From positions 434,001 through 498,000 of the forward strand of contig NC_014136.1 in NCBI RefSeq assembly GCF_000092505.1: a DNA stretch of 64,000 nucleotides, written 5' to 3'. This DNA comes from Leuconostoc kimchii IMSNU 11154. GTDB taxonomy: Bacteria > Bacillota > Bacilli > Lactobacillales > Lactobacillaceae. A program made the position numbers and the translations under genes. The number at the start of each line of letters is the position of its first letter. Positions within the stretch are counted from its first letter, which is position 1. The notes under the pieces were generated by a model, which saw only the letters and a program-made list of their open reading frames with translations, did not search any database and was not told where the DNA came from. This document shows positions 1 through 7,146 of this stretch, one piece after another.

Positions 1-200
1 TGCGTTTCAGGAGAAGTCAGCGATACTTTATAGCCTGCTGTTTTTTCATTTTTCAATGCCATAACTGCGTCTTGTACCTCATATGCCGTGTCAAAATCTT
101 GTACGACATTGACGTAATCGTCTTGATCTAATGGGACATTATCTTTGAATGCCTCAAACAAACTTTGCGCAAGCTTTTGTTGTTCTAATGTTAATGTCAT
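1..200 (-). CDS. 2-keto-4-pentenoate hydratase-like protein, 5' part only
   Basis: Only the first 66 codons are in the window; the gene runs off the left edge. The ATG is at 198-200, with GGGAG 6 nt upstream. The N-terminus opens MTLTLEQQKLAQ and continues through AYEVQDAVMAL and GYKVSLTSPE, resembling the fumarylacetoacetate-hydrolase/MhpD fold proteins annotated in lactic acid bacteria as 2-keto-4-pentenoate hydratase (hydration of 2-hydroxypentadienoate-type enols). The catalytic core is outside the window, so substrate is unknown. It is preceded by an Ile/Thr-codon leader peptide and an intrinsic terminator (228-383), which suggests control by aminoacyl-tRNA supply; this is inference. Family assignment is from memory of N-terminal motifs only. 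Confidence 0.55.
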   Translation of the reverse strand, partial: MTLTLEQQKLAQSLFEAFKDNVPLDQDDYVNVVQDFDTAYEVQDAVMALKNEKTAGYKVSLTSPET

Positions 201-227
201 AATATTCTCCCACGAAATAAAACAAAA

Positions 228-266
228 AAAGAGACAAGCTGCTTTTAAAAAGCAGCTTGTCTCTTT
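228..266 (-). terminator. Attenuator terminator in front of the hydratase gene
   Basis: A near-perfect inverted repeat with a stem of about 18 bp (AAAGAGACAAGCTGC arm) is followed on the minus strand by seven T residues and another T-rich stretch. It lies between the leader peptide and the hydratase RBS, so it acts as a conditional terminator rather than a gene-end terminator. Confidence 0.85.
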
Positions 267-282
267 GACAATTATCAGCTGC
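252..282 (-). promoter_or_regulatory. Candidate antiterminator stem
   Basis: On the minus strand GCAGC (278-282) and TTGTC (267-271) can pair with GCTGC (252-256) and GACAA (257-261). That stem uses the whole 5' base of the terminator arm, so the two structures exclude each other. The pairing is read directly; its use in the cell is inferred. Confidence 0.6.
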
Positions 283-323
283 CCATCAAATGATTGATAG
301 GCACCCAAAATTATCAGCACCTA

Positions 324-383
324 TCACGAAATAATGATAATGCTGATAATAATTTGTGTTGTTGTGTTAACTGATGTTGTCAT
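324..383 (-). CDS. Ile/Thr-rich leader peptide (19 aa)
   Basis: A short ORF of 19 codons begins with ATG at 381-383 and ends with TGA at 324-326. It reads MTTSVNTTT then QIIISIIIIS, giving five Thr and seven Ile codons, the Ile codons clustered right before the stop. A weak purine-rich AGAGA lies about 8 nt upstream. It sits between a good promoter (415-443) and the attenuator terminator (228-266). This is the architecture of a ribosome-mediated attenuation leader as in the thr and ilv operons of enterobacteria. The codons ATT ATC AGC (342-350) can pair with either of two identical GCTGATAAT copies downstream (310-318 and 271-279), the second overlapping the antiterminator. Confidence 0.75.
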   Translation of the reverse strand: MTTSVNTTTQIIISIIIIS

Positions 384-414
384 TTGTTTATCTCTTTTTT
401 TATTTAATATATTT

Positions 415-443
415 ATTAAAACATACTAATTAAAAATTGTCAA
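415..443 (-). promoter_or_regulatory. Promoter of the leader peptide/hydratase unit
   Basis: A consensus -35 TTGACA (438-443) and -10 TTTAAT (415-420) are separated by 17 nt. The predicted start of transcription is near 408, about 25 nt before the leader-peptide ATG. Confidence 0.75.
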
Positions 444-468
444 TAATTAATTAAAATCACAGAATTAA

Positions 469-1083
469 TTATCCTTTAATCCCAGAATTTTCGGCTAATG
501 GCACTAAAATTTTGCCAATAATTGTAACTAAAATAGCCCCTGTAATCACTTCAAATATACCATTGAATGCAACAATACTAACTAACCACCCTAAAATATT
601 TTCTGTTGGTACGCCCGTAAAATTAGTATGCATCACTGTAAAACCAACCGCCGTTGACAAGACAACGCCAACAGTATTAAGTAATGCGGCTAATGCTCCC
701 AAAGAAGCTAAGCCGAAAACTTGTATTCTAGCACTTTTCCCGCGCAGTAACTGATTAAATAACCAACCAATTAAAAATCCCATTAAAAGACGCGGCACAA
801 TTGCTGTAATTGGATTTTGAAATATGAGAGAACCGATAGTCCCTGGCGTTGACCATGCTTGCCATAGCGTTATTAACCCCCAAAACGCACCCATGAACGC
901 ACCCCAACGCGCGCCTAAAATAATTGCTGCAATGGCCACCGTAAATTGAATAATTGTTGGCGCAGCCCCAACAATAAAGGCACCTAGTGGAATGTAACCT
1001 AACCATGGGACAACAACTTGTATTATCACAATAGCCATAAAAAAAATTGCCATTACTAAATATTTTGTTCGATTATTTGTCAT
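469..1083 (-). CDS. ECF transporter S component, PanT-like (paralogue A)
   Basis: A 204-residue very hydrophobic protein with about six membrane segments. It has the ECF_trnsprt-type signatures PTIIQFTV and LGARWGAFMGAFWG near residues 43-70, characteristic of substrate-binding S subunits of energy-coupling-factor vitamin transporters. PanT (pantothenate) proteins look similar, but I cannot fix the substrate. The shared T/ATPase module (ecfA1-ecfA2-ecfT) is not in the window, as expected for group II S components. The ATG has AAGGAA about 8 nt upstream. A second gene of the same family lies at 1267-1881, and the gap between them carries a tRNA on the opposite strand. Confidence 0.8.
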   Translation of the reverse strand: MTNNRTKYLVMAIFFMAIVIIQVVVPWLGYIPLGAFIVGAAPTIIQFTVAIAAIILGARWGAFMGAFWGLITLWQAWSTPGTIGSLIFQNPITAIVPRLLMGFLIGWLFNQLLRGKSARIQVFGLASLGALAALLNTVGVVLSTAVGFTVMHTNFTGVPTENILGWLVSIVAFNGIFEVITGAILVTIIGKILVPLAENSGIKG

Positions 1084-1135
1084 CGTATATTTCCTTATTA
1101 AAAATTAAGATCGTATTGACCAGTTGCGTTATTGC

Positions 1136-1163
1136 TTGTTTTTAAATCAATTTACGGTATAAT
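1136..1163 (+). promoter_or_regulatory. Promoter of tRNA-Arg
   Basis: TTGTTT (1136-1141), a 16-nt spacer and a perfect TATAAT (1158-1163) place the transcription start around 1170, just before the mature tRNA 5' end at 1174. Confidence 0.65.
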
Positions 1164-1173
1164 AAAATAGTTC

Positions 1174-1246
<73 letters not shown>

Positions 1247-1266
1247 TCATATAATATTTCCCCTCA

Positions 1267-1881
1267 TCAGCCGTTAATCCCTGATCGTTGAGCGATTGGC
1301 AGCAAAATATTACCTATAAGCATCACTAATATAAATCCAACAATCATTTCAAAAATTGCATTGAAAGACACAATACCGACTAACCAATTTAAAAGATTGT
1401 GGTCAGGAATACCGGTAAAATTAGTATGCATCATCGTAAATCCAATAACTGTTAAGATAACCACACCAATTGTATTAATTAAGGCAGCTAATACACCCAA
1501 AATTCCTAGCCCAAGTGTTTGAACTGCGGCTGAACGATTACGTAAAAATAAATTAAATAACACACCAATTAATAAACCAACTAAAATACGTGGCAGCAGT
1601 GCAGTAACTGGATTTTGAAACATTAATGAACCAATGGTCCCTGGATGTGTTAACGCATTAATGAATGACAGGCTCCCCCAAAAAAAGCCAACAATGGCGC
1701 CGTACTTTGGGCCGAGTAAAATACCAGATAATGCTACTGTAAATTGTATAATCGTTGCACTAGCGCCAACAACAAACGCTCCTAAGGGCATAACCCCCAA
1801 CCACGGCACAATCATTTGAACCAACACAATAGCAACAAATAATGTTGTAATAATGTAATACTTCGTTTTTCGGTTTGTCAT
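1267..1881 (-). CDS. ECF transporter S component, PanT-like (paralogue B)
   Basis: About 204 residues and clearly homologous along its whole length to the product of 469-1083: shared VPWLG, PLGAF, TIIQFTVA, PGTIGSL, FQNP and MHTNFTG blocks. It is therefore another S component of an ECF-type vitamin transporter, with about six membrane helices. I chose the ATG at 1879-1881 because it aligns exactly with the paralogue start and has AAGGG immediately upstream, though unusually close; a GTG at 1897-1899 would add six residues. Substrate unknown. It probably forms a unit with paralogue A, driven from the promoter at 1934-1962. Confidence 0.8.
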   Translation of the reverse strand: MTNRKTKYYIITTLFVAIVLVQMIVPWLGVMPLGAFVVGASATIIQFTVALSGILLGPKYGAIVGFFWGSLSFINALTHPGTIGSLMFQNPVTALLPRILVGLLIGVLFNLFLRNRSAAVQTLGLGILGVLAALINTIGVVILTVIGFTMMHTNFTGIPDHNLLNWLVGIVSFNAIFEMIVGFILVMLIGNILLPIAQRSGING

Positions 1882-1933
1882 GACCCTTATATCGGTCACT
1901 CGTAATGATGAGAACCGCTCCTCTTATTTGATA

Positions 1934-1962
1934 ATTATATTGTATCTTAATCAGTAGGTTAA
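1934..1962 (-). promoter_or_regulatory. Promoter of ECF paralogue B
   Basis: TTAACC (1957-1962), 17-nt spacer, perfect TATAAT (1934-1939), roughly 50 nt upstream of the chosen ATG. Confidence 0.55.
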
Positions 1963-2028
1963 ACACAATCAAAAAAAGTCGTAAGGATGGTTACTAACTC
2001 GGATTAGTCAGTTTATGGCTAACCACAA

Positions 2029-2352
2029 TCAGTTATCTTTCAATAGCGTTTCAGCCATCTTCAGTATATTATCGCCATTCATCGTACCATAATCTATCAT
2101 ATTCATCACAGCCATGGGTATCTTATGAATATCAGTTTGGTTCTTAACCTCATCTTTTAAATACGAAACTTGAGGTCCTAACAGTACAACATCAGGTTGC
2201 GTATCATTTAATTTTCCCGCAACATCCGACAGAGCCACCGCAAATATTTCGTAATCTTTTCCTTGATTAGCCGCTGATTTTTTCATATTAGCCACTAAAA
2301 GTGATGTTGACATACCAGCAGCACAAACTAACATAACGCGTTTTGTTGCCAT
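2029..2352 (-). CDS. PTS lactose/cellobiose-family EIIB component (orphan)
   Basis: A 107-residue protein starting MATKRVMLVCAAGMSTSLL. The P-loop-like CAAGMSTSL segment carries the Cys (residue 10) that is phosphorylated in cellobiose/lactose-family EIIB domains, which relay phosphate from EIIA to sugar bound at EIIC. Length is normal for a stand-alone EIIB. No EIIA or EIIC gene is adjacent, so it either works with components elsewhere or has a regulatory role. Start ATG has AAGGAG about 9 nt upstream. A cre-like site (2421-2434) just above the -10 suggests CcpA control. Confidence 0.88.
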   Translation of the reverse strand: MATKRVMLVCAAGMSTSLLVANMKKSAANQGKDYEIFAVALSDVAGKLNDTQPDVVLLGPQVSYLKDEVKNQTDIHKIPMAVMNMIDYGTMNGDNILKMAETLLKDN

Positions 2353-2394
2353 AAAGTTTTTCTCCTTAAATGTCTAGCATGCTTTCCTACTACT

Positions 2395-2400
2395 ATTATA
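2395..2400 (-). promoter_or_regulatory. -10 box of the EIIB gene
   Basis: A perfect TATAAT lies 42 nt before the EIIB start codon. The matching -35 region is weak and overlaps the cre-like site. Confidence 0.55.
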
Positions 2401-2420
2401 CCGCTAATTGTATTTGCTTA

Positions 2421-2434
2421 TGTGAGCGTTTTCT
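2421..2434 (-). promoter_or_regulatory. cre-like catabolite-repression site
   Basis: AGAAAACGCTCACA on the minus strand matches 13 of 14 positions of the CcpA-binding consensus WGWAARCGYTWWCW. It lies 20 nt upstream of the -10 box of the PTS EIIB gene, where CcpA binding would block the -35 region. Confidence 0.6.
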
Positions 2435-2456
2435 TTTTAAGAAAACTAATGGCAAT

Positions 2457-2497
2457 AAAAAATGTTATTGTAGAGTGACTATACAATAACATTTTTT
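2457..2497 (-). terminator. Terminator after ileS
   Basis: Arms AAAAAATGTTATTGTA and TACAATAACATTTTTT enclose a 9-nt loop and end in T runs on both strands. It lies 31 nt past the ileS stop. Confidence 0.85.
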
Positions 2498-2527
2498 ATT
2501 ACTTTGATTAGCAGACAAATAGCTACG

Positions 2528-5323
2528 TTATTCTAAGCCTTCCGTTAGGGCTTCAGGATAAAACTCACGTACGATGTCGGCCTCATGTTGAGATAATTCA
2601 GGGAATGCCGCATCAGCACCCAAATCCTCGTGGAACATACGATCACGCGGTGATACCCCACCAATTGCATGTTTAACATCAATTAATATACCGTCATATG
2701 ACTTAACATCGGTCGGCGCTTTTTCAACATCAACAATGTACAATTGAGAAACCATAAGCAATAGACGCACATCTGCATTCAAATTTTGTAATAAATCGTT
2801 TTGTTCAGAAGTAACATACAGCGTCAAAGCCGCTTCGGCATTTTTACCAATTAATTCAGCGCCACGTGCTTCTTCAAGCGCTTTATTCACAGCATCACGT
2901 AGAGACATAAATGTTGACCAATTCTCTAATAAGGCTGTTACGTTTCCTAGATCTTTCGCTTCCGGCATTTCTGACAAGTAGGCAAAATCTAACGTTTCAT
3001 TTGGCAAATATTCCCAAACTTCTTCAGCCGTATGGGGCAAAACTGGTAATAACAACTTTGTTAATGCTAGCAAAGTTTCATAAAATACCGTTTGCATAGA
3101 ACGCCGCGCATGTCCAGTTGGTGCTTCAACGTAAACCACGTCTTTAGCAATATCCAAATAGAAGGCTGACAAATCAACGTTGACAAAATTAATCACTCGT
3201 TTGAAAATATCATTAAATTGATAGTTATCATAAGATTGACGAACATCTTTAATAAAGTTATTCAATAACACAGAGAAATATTGATCGTGTCCCGCCCGTT
3301 CAGCGAATGGCACCGCATCAGTTGTCGCATTATAATCTGTTGTATTGGCCATTAAGAACCGCAATGTGTTTCTTAATTTACGATAACTTTCGGAAACTTG
3401 TTTTAATATGTCATTTGATACTGGCATATCTTGTGATGTGTCAACCGAAATTGTCCACAAGCGCAAAATTTCAATACCCATCTTATCAGCCACATCGAGT
3501 GGTGAAATTGTGTTACCAAGTGACTTAGACATTTTATTGCCTTTACCGTCTAGCGTAAATCCTTGTGATAGCACATTTTTATAAGGCGCATGACCAGTAG
3601 CAGCAACCGATGTGATTAGGGACGAGTTAAACCACCCACGATATTGATCTGATCCTTCCAAATACATGTCCGCAGGATAATCTAAATGATCACGTGTATT
3701 CATAACACCGGCCCAAGACGACCCTGAGTCAAACCAAACATCCATGATATCTTCTTCTTTGGTAAATTGGCCATTTGGTGAATGCTCATTTGTATAACCA
3801 TCAGGCAATAAGTCTTTAGCCTCATGCTCAAACCAGTAGTTTGATCCATGTGCTTCAAATAAATCAGCCACATGATTAATAACTGCTTGATCCACAATTG
3901 GTGTTTGATCTTCCGCATAGAATATTGGTAATGGTACACCCCACACACGTTGACGTGAAATAACCCAATCACCACGGTCACGTATCATATTGTACAGTCG
4001 CTTCTTGCCCCATTCAGGATAAAAAGTCACATGATCAAGCTCATTTAATATATTTTGACGGAACTTTTCTACAGATGCAAACCACTGTGGCACTGCTCGC
4101 CAGATAATTGGTTTCTTTGTACGCCAATCAAAAGGATATGAGTGTGTAATTTTTTCTTTTGCTAAAAATAGCTGTGCATCTTTTAACTTATTAATGACGA
4201 CACCAACAACATCATCATAAAACTTGCCTTCGAAATCAGGGCCGGCATTTTTCGTCATGTACCCCTTTTCGTCCACTGTCACAAATGCCTCAAGGCCATA
4301 CTTCATACCAACATTGAAATCATCTTCACCAAAACCTGGGGCTGTGTGCACTAGCCCCGTACCGGAATCTAATGTCACATGATCAGCATTCATAACTAAT
4401 TCTTCAGTTTCAGAATCCCAAGGATGATACGCTATTATGCGATCTAATTCTTGTCCTTTATAAGTTGCAAGAATTTCATAATTTTCCCAGCCAAATAGCG
4501 GTACAATGGCATCCAAACGGCCAGTTGCAATCACAAACTTTCGTGTTTCACCTGCAGGTTGAATAACGGCATACGTCATATCAGGGCCAAGCGTAATACC
4601 ACGCGATGCTGTTACTGTAAATGGTGTTGTTGTCCAAACAACAAAATATGTATCGTTATCAAGAATACCTTTACCATCCTTGACCTGGTTGGCATAGTAC
4701 AATGAAACAGAATCAATATCATGATATTCTATTTCGGCTTCTGCAAGTGCAGATTCTGATGACCATGACCAATAAACAGGTTTTGAACCTTTAAATATAT
4801 AGCCTTTGCCAGCCATTTCACCAAAGACACGTAATTGAGCTGCCTCAAATTCAGGTAACAAGGTAATATATGGTTTTTCCCAATCTGCCATGATTCCTAA
4901 ACGTTTGAAATCATTTCTTTGCTTGTCAACTTGCGTCAAAGCAAAATCTTTTGCTAAATTACGCCACTCTGCCTTCTTCATCGATTTACGATCATAACCA
5001 GCTTTCGTCAATTGTTGCTCAATTGGCAAACCATGTGTATCCCACCCCGGAACATAAGGTGCATAAAATCCAGCCATATTCTTATAACGAACAATAATAT
5101 CTTTTGAAATTTTATTTAAAGCATGCCCCAAGTGAATGTTACCATTGGCGTATGGTGGCCCATCATGCAAATTAAAATGCGGTTTATTTTCATTTTGTGT
5201 CAATCTTTGTTGATACAAATTAATATCGTACCATTTTTGTTGACGAACAGGTTCCGTTTTTGGCAACGAGCCACGCATTGGAAAATCGGTTTTCCCTAAA
5301 TTAAGTGTGTCTTTGTATTTCAT
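2528..5323 (-). CDS. ileS: Isoleucyl-tRNA synthetase
   Basis: A 931-residue class I synthetase that charges tRNA-Ile. The HIGH-type motif is HLGH (about residues 64-67, in [10 protein letters not shown]) and the KMSKS motif is intact ([10 protein letters not shown]). The editing domain carries WTTTPFT and [10 protein letters not shown]. The start is supported by GGGAGA 8 nt upstream. The C-terminal region that is normally a zinc ribbon (CxxC pairs in Bacillus-type enzymes) is present but reads SPRDRM and LSQHEA where the cysteines should be, and I find no cysteine anywhere in the protein. Expression is controlled by the T-box leader at 5385-5605; a strong terminator follows. Confidence 0.98.
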
Positions 5324-5384
5324 TTAATTTCTCCCATCGTTTATCTTTAATTCTTATTAGCAGTTTGCGTCATGTTCAAATAAA

Positions 5385-5421
5385 AAAGTGTCCCTATGTC
5401 ATTTCGACATAGGGACACTTT
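5385..5421 (-). terminator. T-box terminator hairpin of the ileS leader
   Basis: Arms AAAGTGTCCCTATGTC and GACATAGGGACACTTT with a 5-nt loop, followed on the minus strand by a TTTTTTATTT tract. It is directly downstream of the conserved T-box sequence, which can invade it as antiterminator. Confidence 0.9.
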
Positions 5422-5605
5422 CGCGTGGTACCACCCAAGTTTAGTTATATTAAATAACCCTCAAACCAGTATTAACGGACTGCACCGTTTGAACTTACTA
5501 AAACTTCAGTTCAACAAAACTTGTAACTGATTTAAATGGCTACAGTGACGATCATCTCAAACCACCATGACTCGCTGCGCGTATGTATGCCAATCTTTTT
5601 GTGTT
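5385..5605 (-). ncRNA. T-box riboswitch controlling ileS
   Basis: The minus strand carries the T-box motif GGGTGGTACCACGCG (5422-5436) followed at once by the terminator, and about 170 nt of upstream leader containing a stem I-like region (AGCGAG and GGTGG elements near 5560-5580). T-box leaders bind uncharged tRNA, here presumably tRNA-Ile, and stabilise the antiterminator. An ATC triplet near 5550 is a possible specifier, but I did not prove its position in the loop. The 5' limit is approximate; divIVA ends at 5616. Confidence 0.88.
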
Positions 5606-5615
5606 ACGCTTCTTG

Positions 5616-6314
5616 TTATTTATTATTGTCGTTACTATTTTCTTCTGATTCTGGAAACACCACAACTGGACCTGAGGCAGGCTTTGCATCAGTTATTGTA
5701 TCATCAAGTGCCTCTGCTTCTATCTGTTGTTGATCTTCTACAGCAGCAGATGATTCTTCAGTTGTTATTGTATTATCATTATCCACACGCTTGGCAGTAA
5801 CTTGACCAAACGGTAAATGATGAACCGCTTCAGCTAATTCATCATTTTCTATTAGTTTACGCTGAAGTGTTAATAATTTCAAGAAGGAATTTTTAAAATT
5901 TTCCACTTCAGTTCGTAGTTGGTTCTGCTCATCAATCAAATCAGCATTTTCTTGTGCTAAGTTTGATGCTTCAGCTTCAGCCTTGGTACGTGCATCGCTA
6001 ATAATTTTAGTGGCAGATTCTTGAGCATGAGTCAGCTGTTTCTTTACCTCAACATCAGCCTCCTGCTTTAAACGATCTGCAGCTTCTTGAGCAACAAAGA
6101 TAGATTGATTAACTTGTTCACGCTTCGCTTCTAATTCATCAACTCTAGCTTTTAAACCACTATTATCATTGCGCAACTTATCGCGTTCAGCGATCAAGGT
6201 TTCATAATCACTATTGACAGTATCCAGAAACGCATCGACTTCCGACGCAATGTAAGCACGTGAGCCTTTCTTAGTAAATTCGTGGTTCAAAATTTCATCA
6301 GGTGTTAATAACAT
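5616..6314 (-). CDS. divIVA: DivIVA domain cell-division protein
   Basis: About 232 residues. The N-terminus MLLTPDEILNHEFTKKGSRAY matches the DivIVA membrane-curvature-binding head, followed by a long coiled coil (about residues 30-165) and an acidic, low-complexity tail rich in Glu, Asp, Asn and Thr. DivIVA marks negatively curved septal membrane and recruits division and wall-synthesis proteins. I prefer the second of two tandem ATGs because AAAAGGAG is then 5 nt away; the first adds one Met. It is the last dcw gene before the ileS leader. Confidence 0.95.
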   Translation of the reverse strand: MLLTPDEILNHEFTKKGSRAYIASEVDAFLDTVNSDYETLIAERDKLRNDNSGLKARVDELEAKREQVNQSIFVAQEAADRLKQEADVEVKKQLTHAQESATKIISDARTKAEAEASNLAQENADLIDEQNQLRTEVENFKNSFLKLLTLQRKLIENDELAEAVHHLPFGQVTAKRVDNDNTITTEESSAAVEDQQQIEAEALDDTITDAKPASGPVVVFPESEENSNDNNK

Positions 6315-6351
6315 CATATCTCCTTTTAACTTCGAAATATTTCGTGTTAAT

Positions 6352-7146
6352 TTAACGACGAATAATATTTACAACTGTCTTAATTTTATCTTTCTTAGTT
6401 AAACCATCAATCATCACCAGTTGCAGTCGTCCATAGTGACGAACAGAAACCATATCACCGACAGCAATGACATGATCTGGCTTAAGCATCGTTGCCCAAT
6501 TAATACGAACTTGTTCTTGTTCAACTAATGACTTTGCCATGCGTCGTGATATATCAAAAGCAGCTGAGACAGCAGTATCGATGCGCAGCGATGAAAGTAG
6601 TAAAAACACTTCGTCCCAATCATCGCGATCTGTCACAGGAATATGGTCTAAATTTTGTTCCATCAATGTGATTCTTACACGACCAATTTTTTCAACGGTC
6701 TGTTGAATATACGTCACCATTTTAGCATCGACAACAATTTGCCATTGATCCTGATGAGATAGAATATCACCAATAACAGCACGTTCTATACCAGCACTCA
6801 TAAATGAGCCAAGTATTGTTGCGTGATGTAGCTCGGTAAATTTAACTGGATACTTAATTTCTAATAAAGCTAACTCGAAATCTGACAATTCAATCTCGTA
6901 AAAACTTGGGGCGATAAAAGCGCGTTGACTTTCTGCATGAGGTACCACACCATTAAATTGAACAACTAAATCTTTTGCTCGATTAACGCATGTTTGTAAA
7001 ATATATTGCTCACGTGGGTTTAAAAAACGCGTCAATATGCCTCGATATTCATCCTCACTTTGACGGATCCAATCACTTGCTTGTTGTATAAATTTTTCTT
7101 CTTCTGGTCTAAAATGTTGCGTTACTGCGACTGCACTCTCTGTCAT
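6352..7146 (-). CDS. ylmH: YlmH family S4-domain RNA-binding protein
   Basis: A 264-residue protein with the YlmH layout: an N-terminal alpha/beta region containing LGSFMSAGIERAVIGDI and a C-terminal S4 RNA-binding domain at about 180-245 (SRRMAKSLVEQEQVRIN, VAVGDMVSVRHYG type). YlmH is conserved beside sepF and divIVA in Gram-positive bacteria and has been linked to ribosome rescue and cell division. The ATG overlaps the yggT stop by 4 nt, implying translational coupling. Confidence 0.93.
   Translation of the reverse strand: MTESAVAVTQHFRPEEEKFIQQASDWIRQSEDEYRGILTRFLNPREQYILQTCVNRAKDLVVQFNGVVPHAESQRAFIAPSFYEIELSDFELALLEIKYPVKFTELHHATILGSFMSAGIERAVIGDILSHQDQWQIVVDAKMVTYIQQTVEKIGRVRITLMEQNLDHIPVTDRDDWDEVFLLLSSLRIDTAVSAAFDISRRMAKSLVEQEQVRINWATMLKPDHVIAVGDMVSVRHYGRLQLVMIDGLTKKDKIKTVVNIIRR

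Follow-up and report, generated by a model that had tools for sequence, protein, structure and literature searches.

A stretch of 64,000 nucleotides from Leuconostoc kimchii IMSNU 11154 (the window), part of a 2.1-Mb genome, carries on its minus strand a leader that probably reads the isoleucine supply through a tiny Ile-rich peptide and turns on an importer and a linked enzyme at shortage, as judged from sequence and modelled folds. We suggest, at a probability of roughly 0.87, that this leader senses charged tRNA-Ile as a transcription attenuator of the ribosome-mediated kind and so governs an operon of a hydratase gene and brnQ. The initial annotation had claimed ribosome-mediated attenuation, and the claim is well supported, since anatomy and conservation would both fit it, as would the ribosome-position folding and the covariation seen for the terminated state; attenuation by Ile is very likely. 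Related leaders are recognizable by sequence in other Lactobacillaceae genera.

The leader region (443-201, minus strand) ends directly before the hydratase ATG at 200, and its attenuator part covers 443-224. It opens with the promoter TTGACA-N17-TTTAAT (443-415; TTGACA at 443-438, 17 nt, TTTAAT at 420-415), and the same hexamers and spacing were present in all 12 genomes of group A, defined below. This promoter was not listed by our promoter scan because the scan accepted only -10 boxes whose second base is A. The leader peptide ORF (383-324) has 19 codons and encodes MTTSVNTTTQIIISIIIIS, with five Thr codons and seven Ile codons (codons 11-13 and 15-18) and the C-terminal end QIIISIIIIS; its ribosome-binding site is weak (GAGA, judged by eye). 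Two near-identical blocks, TGATAGGTGCTGATAAT (327-311) and TGATGGGCAGCTGATAAT (288-271), were located in the leader. The possible antiterminator (282-252) consists of GCAGC (282-278) and TTGTC (271-267), which can pair with GACAAGCTGC (261-252) inside the 5' arm of the terminator. The terminator itself has an 18-bp stem (266-249/245-228), a loop of 3, and a T-run to 224. The consensus promoter, the 19-codon ORF, the paired blocks, the antiterminator consuming the terminator 5' arm, and the 18-bp terminator had all been pointed out in the initial annotation and were found here as described. The leader folded at -70.7 kcal/mol, compared with -29.3 +/- 3.8 for shuffles (z -10.8; 0/200 as stable). 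None of 5000 dinucleotide-shuffled versions of the 268-nt intergenic region contained an ORF with seven Ile in eight codons, and 6/5000 contained one with six of eight; seven Ile anywhere in an ORF was not rare (278/5000).

The leader can be divided into six segments, namely A (349-334), which lies within the Ile codons, B (327-311), C (304-294), D (289-267), E (266-249), and F (245-228; the terminator loop, F, and the T-run together cover 248-224), with a pairing plan of A:B, C:D, and E:F versus B:C and D:E. B pairs either with A, as the pause stem, or with C; C pairs with B or, as the protector, with D. Segment D uses 289-281 for C, and 282-278 with 271-267 for its target E, the terminator 5' arm. 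The assignment was based on folding, together with covariation for A (A:B, in the wider family), B, and C and the group A comparison for E; for D:E the covariation was weak or absent. The kit that had been described is kept as an attenuator, and its layout is one of six segments, like his leaders, and not of four. Two features of ribosome-mediated attenuators are both present, a promoter followed by a short ORF with consecutive regulatory codons and an intrinsic terminator between this ORF and the first gene; an exclusive antiterminator favoured by a stalled ribosome was obtained as a folding prediction only, with mixed covariation of D:E.

Without a ribosome, A:B, C:D, and the terminator E:F would form, and transcription would stop. 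When Ile is sufficient, the ribosome would reach the stop codon and cover A and part of B, so that C:D would form and E would be free for the terminator. When Ile is short, a ribosome stalled at codons 11-16 would cover A, which would allow B:C to form and release D; the released D would pair with E, no terminator would arise, and the hydratase and the BrnQ carrier would be made. This scheme was modelled by folding the RNA between the stalled ribosome and the end of E under an assumed 12-nt footprint. In the window, E had an antiterminator pairing of 0.05 in the ribosome-free RNA. The value was 0.52-0.62 for a ribosome at codons 11-16, of which five are Ile and one is Ser; it was 0.05-0.24 at codon 17 and beyond, up to the stop, also low at codon 10, and middling (0.25-0.38) at codons 1-9. 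In some group A relatives, middling values were obtained at first-codon stalls too, up to 0.65 in G015. The same scan was applied to 54 of the 55 leaders of the R1 family described below (L081, whose E arm was unaligned, was skipped, and its Ile-rich leader was seen separately). The mean pairing was 0.22 without a ribosome, 0.63 at the best Ile/Val codon, and 0.38 at the stop; 3/54 leaders did not rise above the ribosome-free state and 7/54 did not exceed the stop position by 0.1. The ORF content in this family scan is no independent test because the rule for choosing the ORF favours Ile/Val.

The hydratase is encoded in 18 of the 19 Leuconostoc genomes, the window's own included, and an Ile-rich short ORF was found upstream of it in 18/18. 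In group A (12 genomes, window included), the leaders share start, length (18-19 codons), stop, and an Ile core, IIISIII(I/T/M), and a 23-base stretch is invariant in the 11 aligned. Because this core does not vary even in its DNA within group A, it is silent there on selection for the peptide as such. The Ile codons are conserved among related genomes, with 6-8 in each of the 12 group A leaders. In group B (6 genomes), the hydratase has a different Ile-rich leader, for example MNKQMNSQVNNTIINAIIII, which forms stems and a terminator of its own. Its A:B, C:D, and E:F pairings are conserved, and no codon-dependent switch appeared in its folds. No gene stands close behind the hydratase on its strand in the stretch viewed, and brnQ is located elsewhere, behind a group-A-like leader (6/6). 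In all six group B leaders (L015-L020), the leader ATG was observed 6-7 nt behind a -10-like box. Translation of the group B leader peptide may therefore proceed on a leaderless mRNA.

The first regulated gene in the window, encoding an MhpD-like hydratase of 263 aa, occupies 200-1 and continues beyond the window edge (G000:C6:433409-434200, minus strand), where its stop overlaps the start of brnQ by one base. The brnQ gene (462 aa; G000:C6:432021-433409) lies wholly outside the window, and its product belongs to the LIVCS carriers (TIGR00796, 312.1 against a cut-off of 243.4; PF05525, 368.4 against 22.3). Since the operon extends into brnQ, Ile control of the operon is not surprising. Further downstream are upp, a PTS EIIC gene, and an ABC transporter; the binding protein of this transporter is similar to those for branched-chain amino acids, with 154 bits, below the cut-off of 477. 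No match to ilvD (TIGR00110) was obtained in the window's genome, and 6/19 Leuconostoc genomes have one; all 14 control genomes were positive. From the missing ilvD match, uptake is probably the Ile source of this organism. For the Leuconostoc ilvD genes, no T-box match was obtained and no clear leader was seen. A second Leuconostoc brnQ was preceded by a T-box in all five loci scanned (four at or above the gathering score), with GTA (Val) at a specifier-like position by eye. In L109, L110, L111, L112, L114, and L116, the interval from this T-box to brnQ includes a short ORF that is conserved and encodes SVGGLYRV. Elsewhere in the window, two similar ECF transporter substrate components (469-1083 and 1267-1899, minus strand) flank a tRNA-Arg(CCT) gene on the opposite strand (1174-1246).

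A covariance model built from the window-type leader (R1) was searched against 397 Lactobacillaceae genomes and gave 105 match rows in 71 genomes at E <= 0.001, weak false ones among them. From these rows, 40 regions were chosen by hand, mostly top-ranked, with G019 (65 bits) and others left out. These regions held 44 matches at E <= 1e-7, and with the 12 group A leaders, 55 of the 56 matches at that threshold entered alignment A4; L084, which has no leader ORF, was dropped before alignment, as was L085 (1.2e-7), which has no Ile- or Val-run leader. The 55 aligned leaders come from 11 of the 40 sampled genera. Their first genes are 32 brnQ, 12 hydratase, 7 MHS-type transporter, 2 ilvD, and 2 glutamate-cysteine-ligase-like (gshA-like) genes; in four cases (L040, L079, L081, and L083) the downstream gene is present as split ORFs. 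The two leaders before the glutamate-cysteine-ligase-like gene (L056:4846-4981 and L057:4989-5120) were observed to have the same architecture with a Val/Ser/Thr-rich peptide, LTVSVSSVTH. The MHS family name indicates resemblance because the TIGR00883 score of 415.8 is below the cut-off of 443.45; E. coli YhjE has been described as an MHS-family Ile/Val permease, with which an MHS-type transporter behind Ile leaders agrees (PMC12708883). In the genus g2, a tandem pair of brnQ genes was found in 7/9 genomes fetched. One leader of the pair ends in AIIISIIIP and the other in AVVVSV(V/L)I(R/H), mostly with GTC codons, and in L061, the locus tested, the second carrier scores 329.3 for TIGR00796, over the cut-off of 243.4. 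The core pairing TCAGC:GCTGA is unchanged despite the change from Ile to Val codons. Judged from this comparison, the Val-codon leader is the same device set for another amino acid.

In a sample of 295 genomes, a number that refers to the whole order and not to the genomes outside Lactobacillaceae, four R1 matches at E <= 1e-6 lay outside the family. All four lack an Ile/Val-run leader and look like ordinary terminators behind gene ends, so they were rejected. Weak R1 matches are unsafe for this reason, and also because L084 lacks a leader ORF and L085 an Ile/Val run. The leader family is absent from Rfam. At gathering score, the window matched no Rfam family except tRNA-Arg, and none was matched on the R1-type leaders of L009, L056, L058, L065, L070, L073, and L079.

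Within group A, both-sided changes were found in 9/18 pairs of the terminator stem E:F, and A:B and C:D are nearly invariant. The antiterminated state (B:C with D:E) showed no excess covariation in group A, where its paired cells were matched by 318/500 shuffles. All three stems of the terminated state covary in the wider family (54 distinct rows), with 338 cells changed on both sides compared with 95.6 in shuffles (0/500); alignment A4 favours this state because it was fitted to the terminated structure. B:C, which lies outside the model, had 36 both-sided cells versus 16.0 in shuffles (0/500), and its pairs with both-sided changes numbered 7 versus 5.3, equalled by 52/500 shuffles. D:E gave a mixed result in the wider set, with 6 both-sided cells versus 1.9 (0/500) and both-sided pairs matched by 182/500 shuffles. 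Taken together, the comparison with relatives upholds the ORF, A:B, C:D, E:F, and B:C; the pairing of D:E is mostly kept and its covariation is weak.

The hydratase has its named relatives in Leuconostoc, at 94% in L. inhae, the nearest, 89% in L. rapi, 79% in L. carnosum, 73% in L. miyukkimchii, and 64% in L. pseudomesenteroides and L. falkenbergense. It is distantly MhpD-like, with the PDB homologue 1sv6 (1.4e-15); one Lys and three Glu, which we take to be catalytic, are conserved in the alignment. Against the NCBIfam MhpD/HpaH/DmpE/DmpH equivalogs, it stayed below the cut-offs (best 74.1 bits versus 351.5), and Pfam gave no match at 0.001. The gene was found in 175/397 Lactobacillaceae genomes. 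Among 20 loci from other genera, a sample unselected for T-boxes, 17 have a T-box upstream of the hydratase, two (genus g2) have an Ile leader ending in NIIAAIIIV/T, and one lies directly behind ilvE, a branched-chain aminotransferase gene (TIGR01123, 394.6 bits versus 250.05). Of the 17 T-boxes, six reach the gathering score and the others score 64-92 bits (E <= 1.2e-11). Together with eight further loci picked by eye for T-box-like sequence, 25/25 have ATC (Ile) at what we take to be the specifier position of the T-box alignment, shifted by one alignment column in L146. The scan at gathering score, which left out L095, L099, and L100, detected no T-box in L091 and L096; this absence is weak evidence, because L090 was missed at the same threshold and found later at 79 bits.

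Given these T-boxes with ATC and the Ile leader peptides, two dissimilar devices appear to place the hydratase gene under Ile sensing. In L097, L098, L101, L142, L144, L145, L083, and L086, the hydratase or MHS gene is separated from its T-box or leader by a short ORF that has a strong ribosome-binding site and often SDIS or a similar motif near its start. The L. plantarum hydratase is listed among genes lowered in a study of a LysR regulator (PMC9019972).

These loci bear on the alternative that survives best, that the control is meant for brnQ alone, with the hydratase as a passenger. We consider it unlikely. It would explain why brnQ is the commonest gene after the leader family (32/55) and follows the hydratase in 9/12 group A genomes. 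On the other hand, leader and hydratase are retained in G015, in whose genome no brnQ was found, and in G005, where a remnant of 41 codons with a stop remains (G005:C1:1303514-1303636); G004 has the same remnant (G004:C78:2560-2682) and adds little, as it is a poor draft close to G005 with the hydratase in three pieces. Moreover, the group B hydratase stands alone behind another Ile leader (6/6), and an ATC T-box precedes the hydratase in 17 of the 20 other-genera loci. With the ilvE neighbour and the two Ile leaders in addition, the hydratase itself looks Ile-controlled. The suggestion of the initial annotation that the enzyme may act in Ile or 2-oxo-acid metabolism is strengthened by the brnQ loss, the T-box(Ile), and the ilvE neighbour, as an assignment to an area of metabolism and not to a reaction.

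The initial annotation had also read the leader as under both Ile and Thr codons. Joint control by Thr and Ile, as in the E. coli thr leader, would mean that stalls at Thr codons open the operon too, and this appears improbable. The five Thr codons of the window ORF, a match to the Rfam Thr_leader below threshold (25.8 bits; gathering score 55), and Thr-codon stalls at 0.25-0.38, above the ribosome-free 0.05, are in line with it. However, each of the 12 group A leaders has between 1 and 5 Thr codons, two leaders having just 1, where Ile is steady at 6-8; the other 42 family leaders scored have 0 to 4, and 23 of these have 0 or 1. The Thr codons also lie upstream of A, and their stalls give lower pairing than the 0.52-0.62 of codons 11-16. 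Thr as the main signal was rejected on these grounds, so that the Ile part of the earlier reading stands and the Thr part is not supported. A constitutive partial terminator, with the Ile run as a by-product of RNA structure, would agree with the DNA-invariant core of group A, which could be preserved for pairing alone, but is very improbable, since the core varies in the wider family yet stays Ile or Val (with Val codons in 7/9 g2 genomes and TCAGC:GCTGA retained) and the second leader of group B, of other sequence, is again Ile-rich.

Among Firmicutes, branched-chain amino acid (BCAA) biosynthesis is known from the literature to be under ribosome-mediated attenuation in Listeria (PMC5864092) and in S. 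aureus (PMC5794164), with further cases mentioned in a review (PMC6123439). T-boxes of Firmicutes were reported by Naville and Gautheret to be replaced by regular leader peptides (PMC2965389). A T-box survey of 2008 covers BrnQ carriers, and its main text has no Leuconostoc or hydratase (PMC2494555). A 2022 study counted Leuconostoc among genera that carry T-boxes for His and described attenuators for the same amino acid in other Firmicutes (PMC9413887), and a 2013 study stated that Ile/Val-specific amino-acid attenuators were then absent from Rfam (PMC3766115). Our full-text literature search, with most subscription journals outside its scope, returned in the text available no description of a Lactobacillaceae brnQ leader peptide or hydratase T-box. 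The mechanism is thus already known; the leader family, the Ile/Val exchange, and the T-box exchange before one gene appear undescribed in the literature searched.

The R1 family, present in 11 of 40 sampled Lactobacillaceae genera, precedes brnQ, an MHS-type transporter gene, ilvD, and the hydratase, and its codons may predict whether a carrier responds to Ile or Val. The same hydratase gene has a leader in Leuconostoc and a T-box in most other sampled genera, which makes the exchange of tRNA-charging sensors studiable on one gene, and the leader would give an orphan enzyme a physiological address. We tentatively propose, at somewhat less than even odds, that the MhpD-like hydratase is an unrecognised Lactobacillaceae enzyme of isoleucine or 2-oxo-acid supply, brought at least twice under sensors of tRNA-Ile that work in different ways (leader peptides in Leuconostoc and in one further genus; the T-box in most of the other sampled genera), also without a co-transcribed carrier, and that the Leuconostoc leader family is a modular sensor whose specificity was changed by an Ile/Val codon swap.

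The nearest known design is the his operon leader of enterobacteria, a six-segment attenuator with the same plan (A:B, C:D, and E:F versus B:C and D:E) and with its regulatory codons in A. The Leuconostoc leader differs from it in reading Ile and not His, in belonging to Lactobacillaceae, and in serving uptake and not biosynthesis. E. coli thrL also has a Thr- and Ile-rich peptide ahead of a terminator, but the window leader scores 25.8 bits for RF00506 (Thr_leader), short of its gathering score (55). The T-box(Ile) (RF00230) likewise senses tRNA-Ile charging and precedes the same hydratase in other genera and ileS in the window; unlike the leader, it reads the tRNA directly and has no leader peptide. 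RF00230 had no match at 200-470, and its sole match in window 1-6500 is at 5408-5620 (minus strand), before ileS; with 73 bits this T-box falls short of the gathering score (93), and it has ATC near the specifier position. Among Firmicutes attenuators, Rli60 of Listeria monocytogenes, which is ribosome-mediated and mutation-tested, has a BCAA-rich leader peptide as well, but controls ilv-leu biosynthesis and has one terminator/antiterminator pair, a distinction drawn from its description and not from its sequence (PMC5864092). The ilv-leu attenuator of Staphylococcus aureus also uses a peptide before BCAA genes; it differs in being Leu-rich and serving biosynthesis, and brnQ1 in that species is described as controlled by CodY (PMC5794164).
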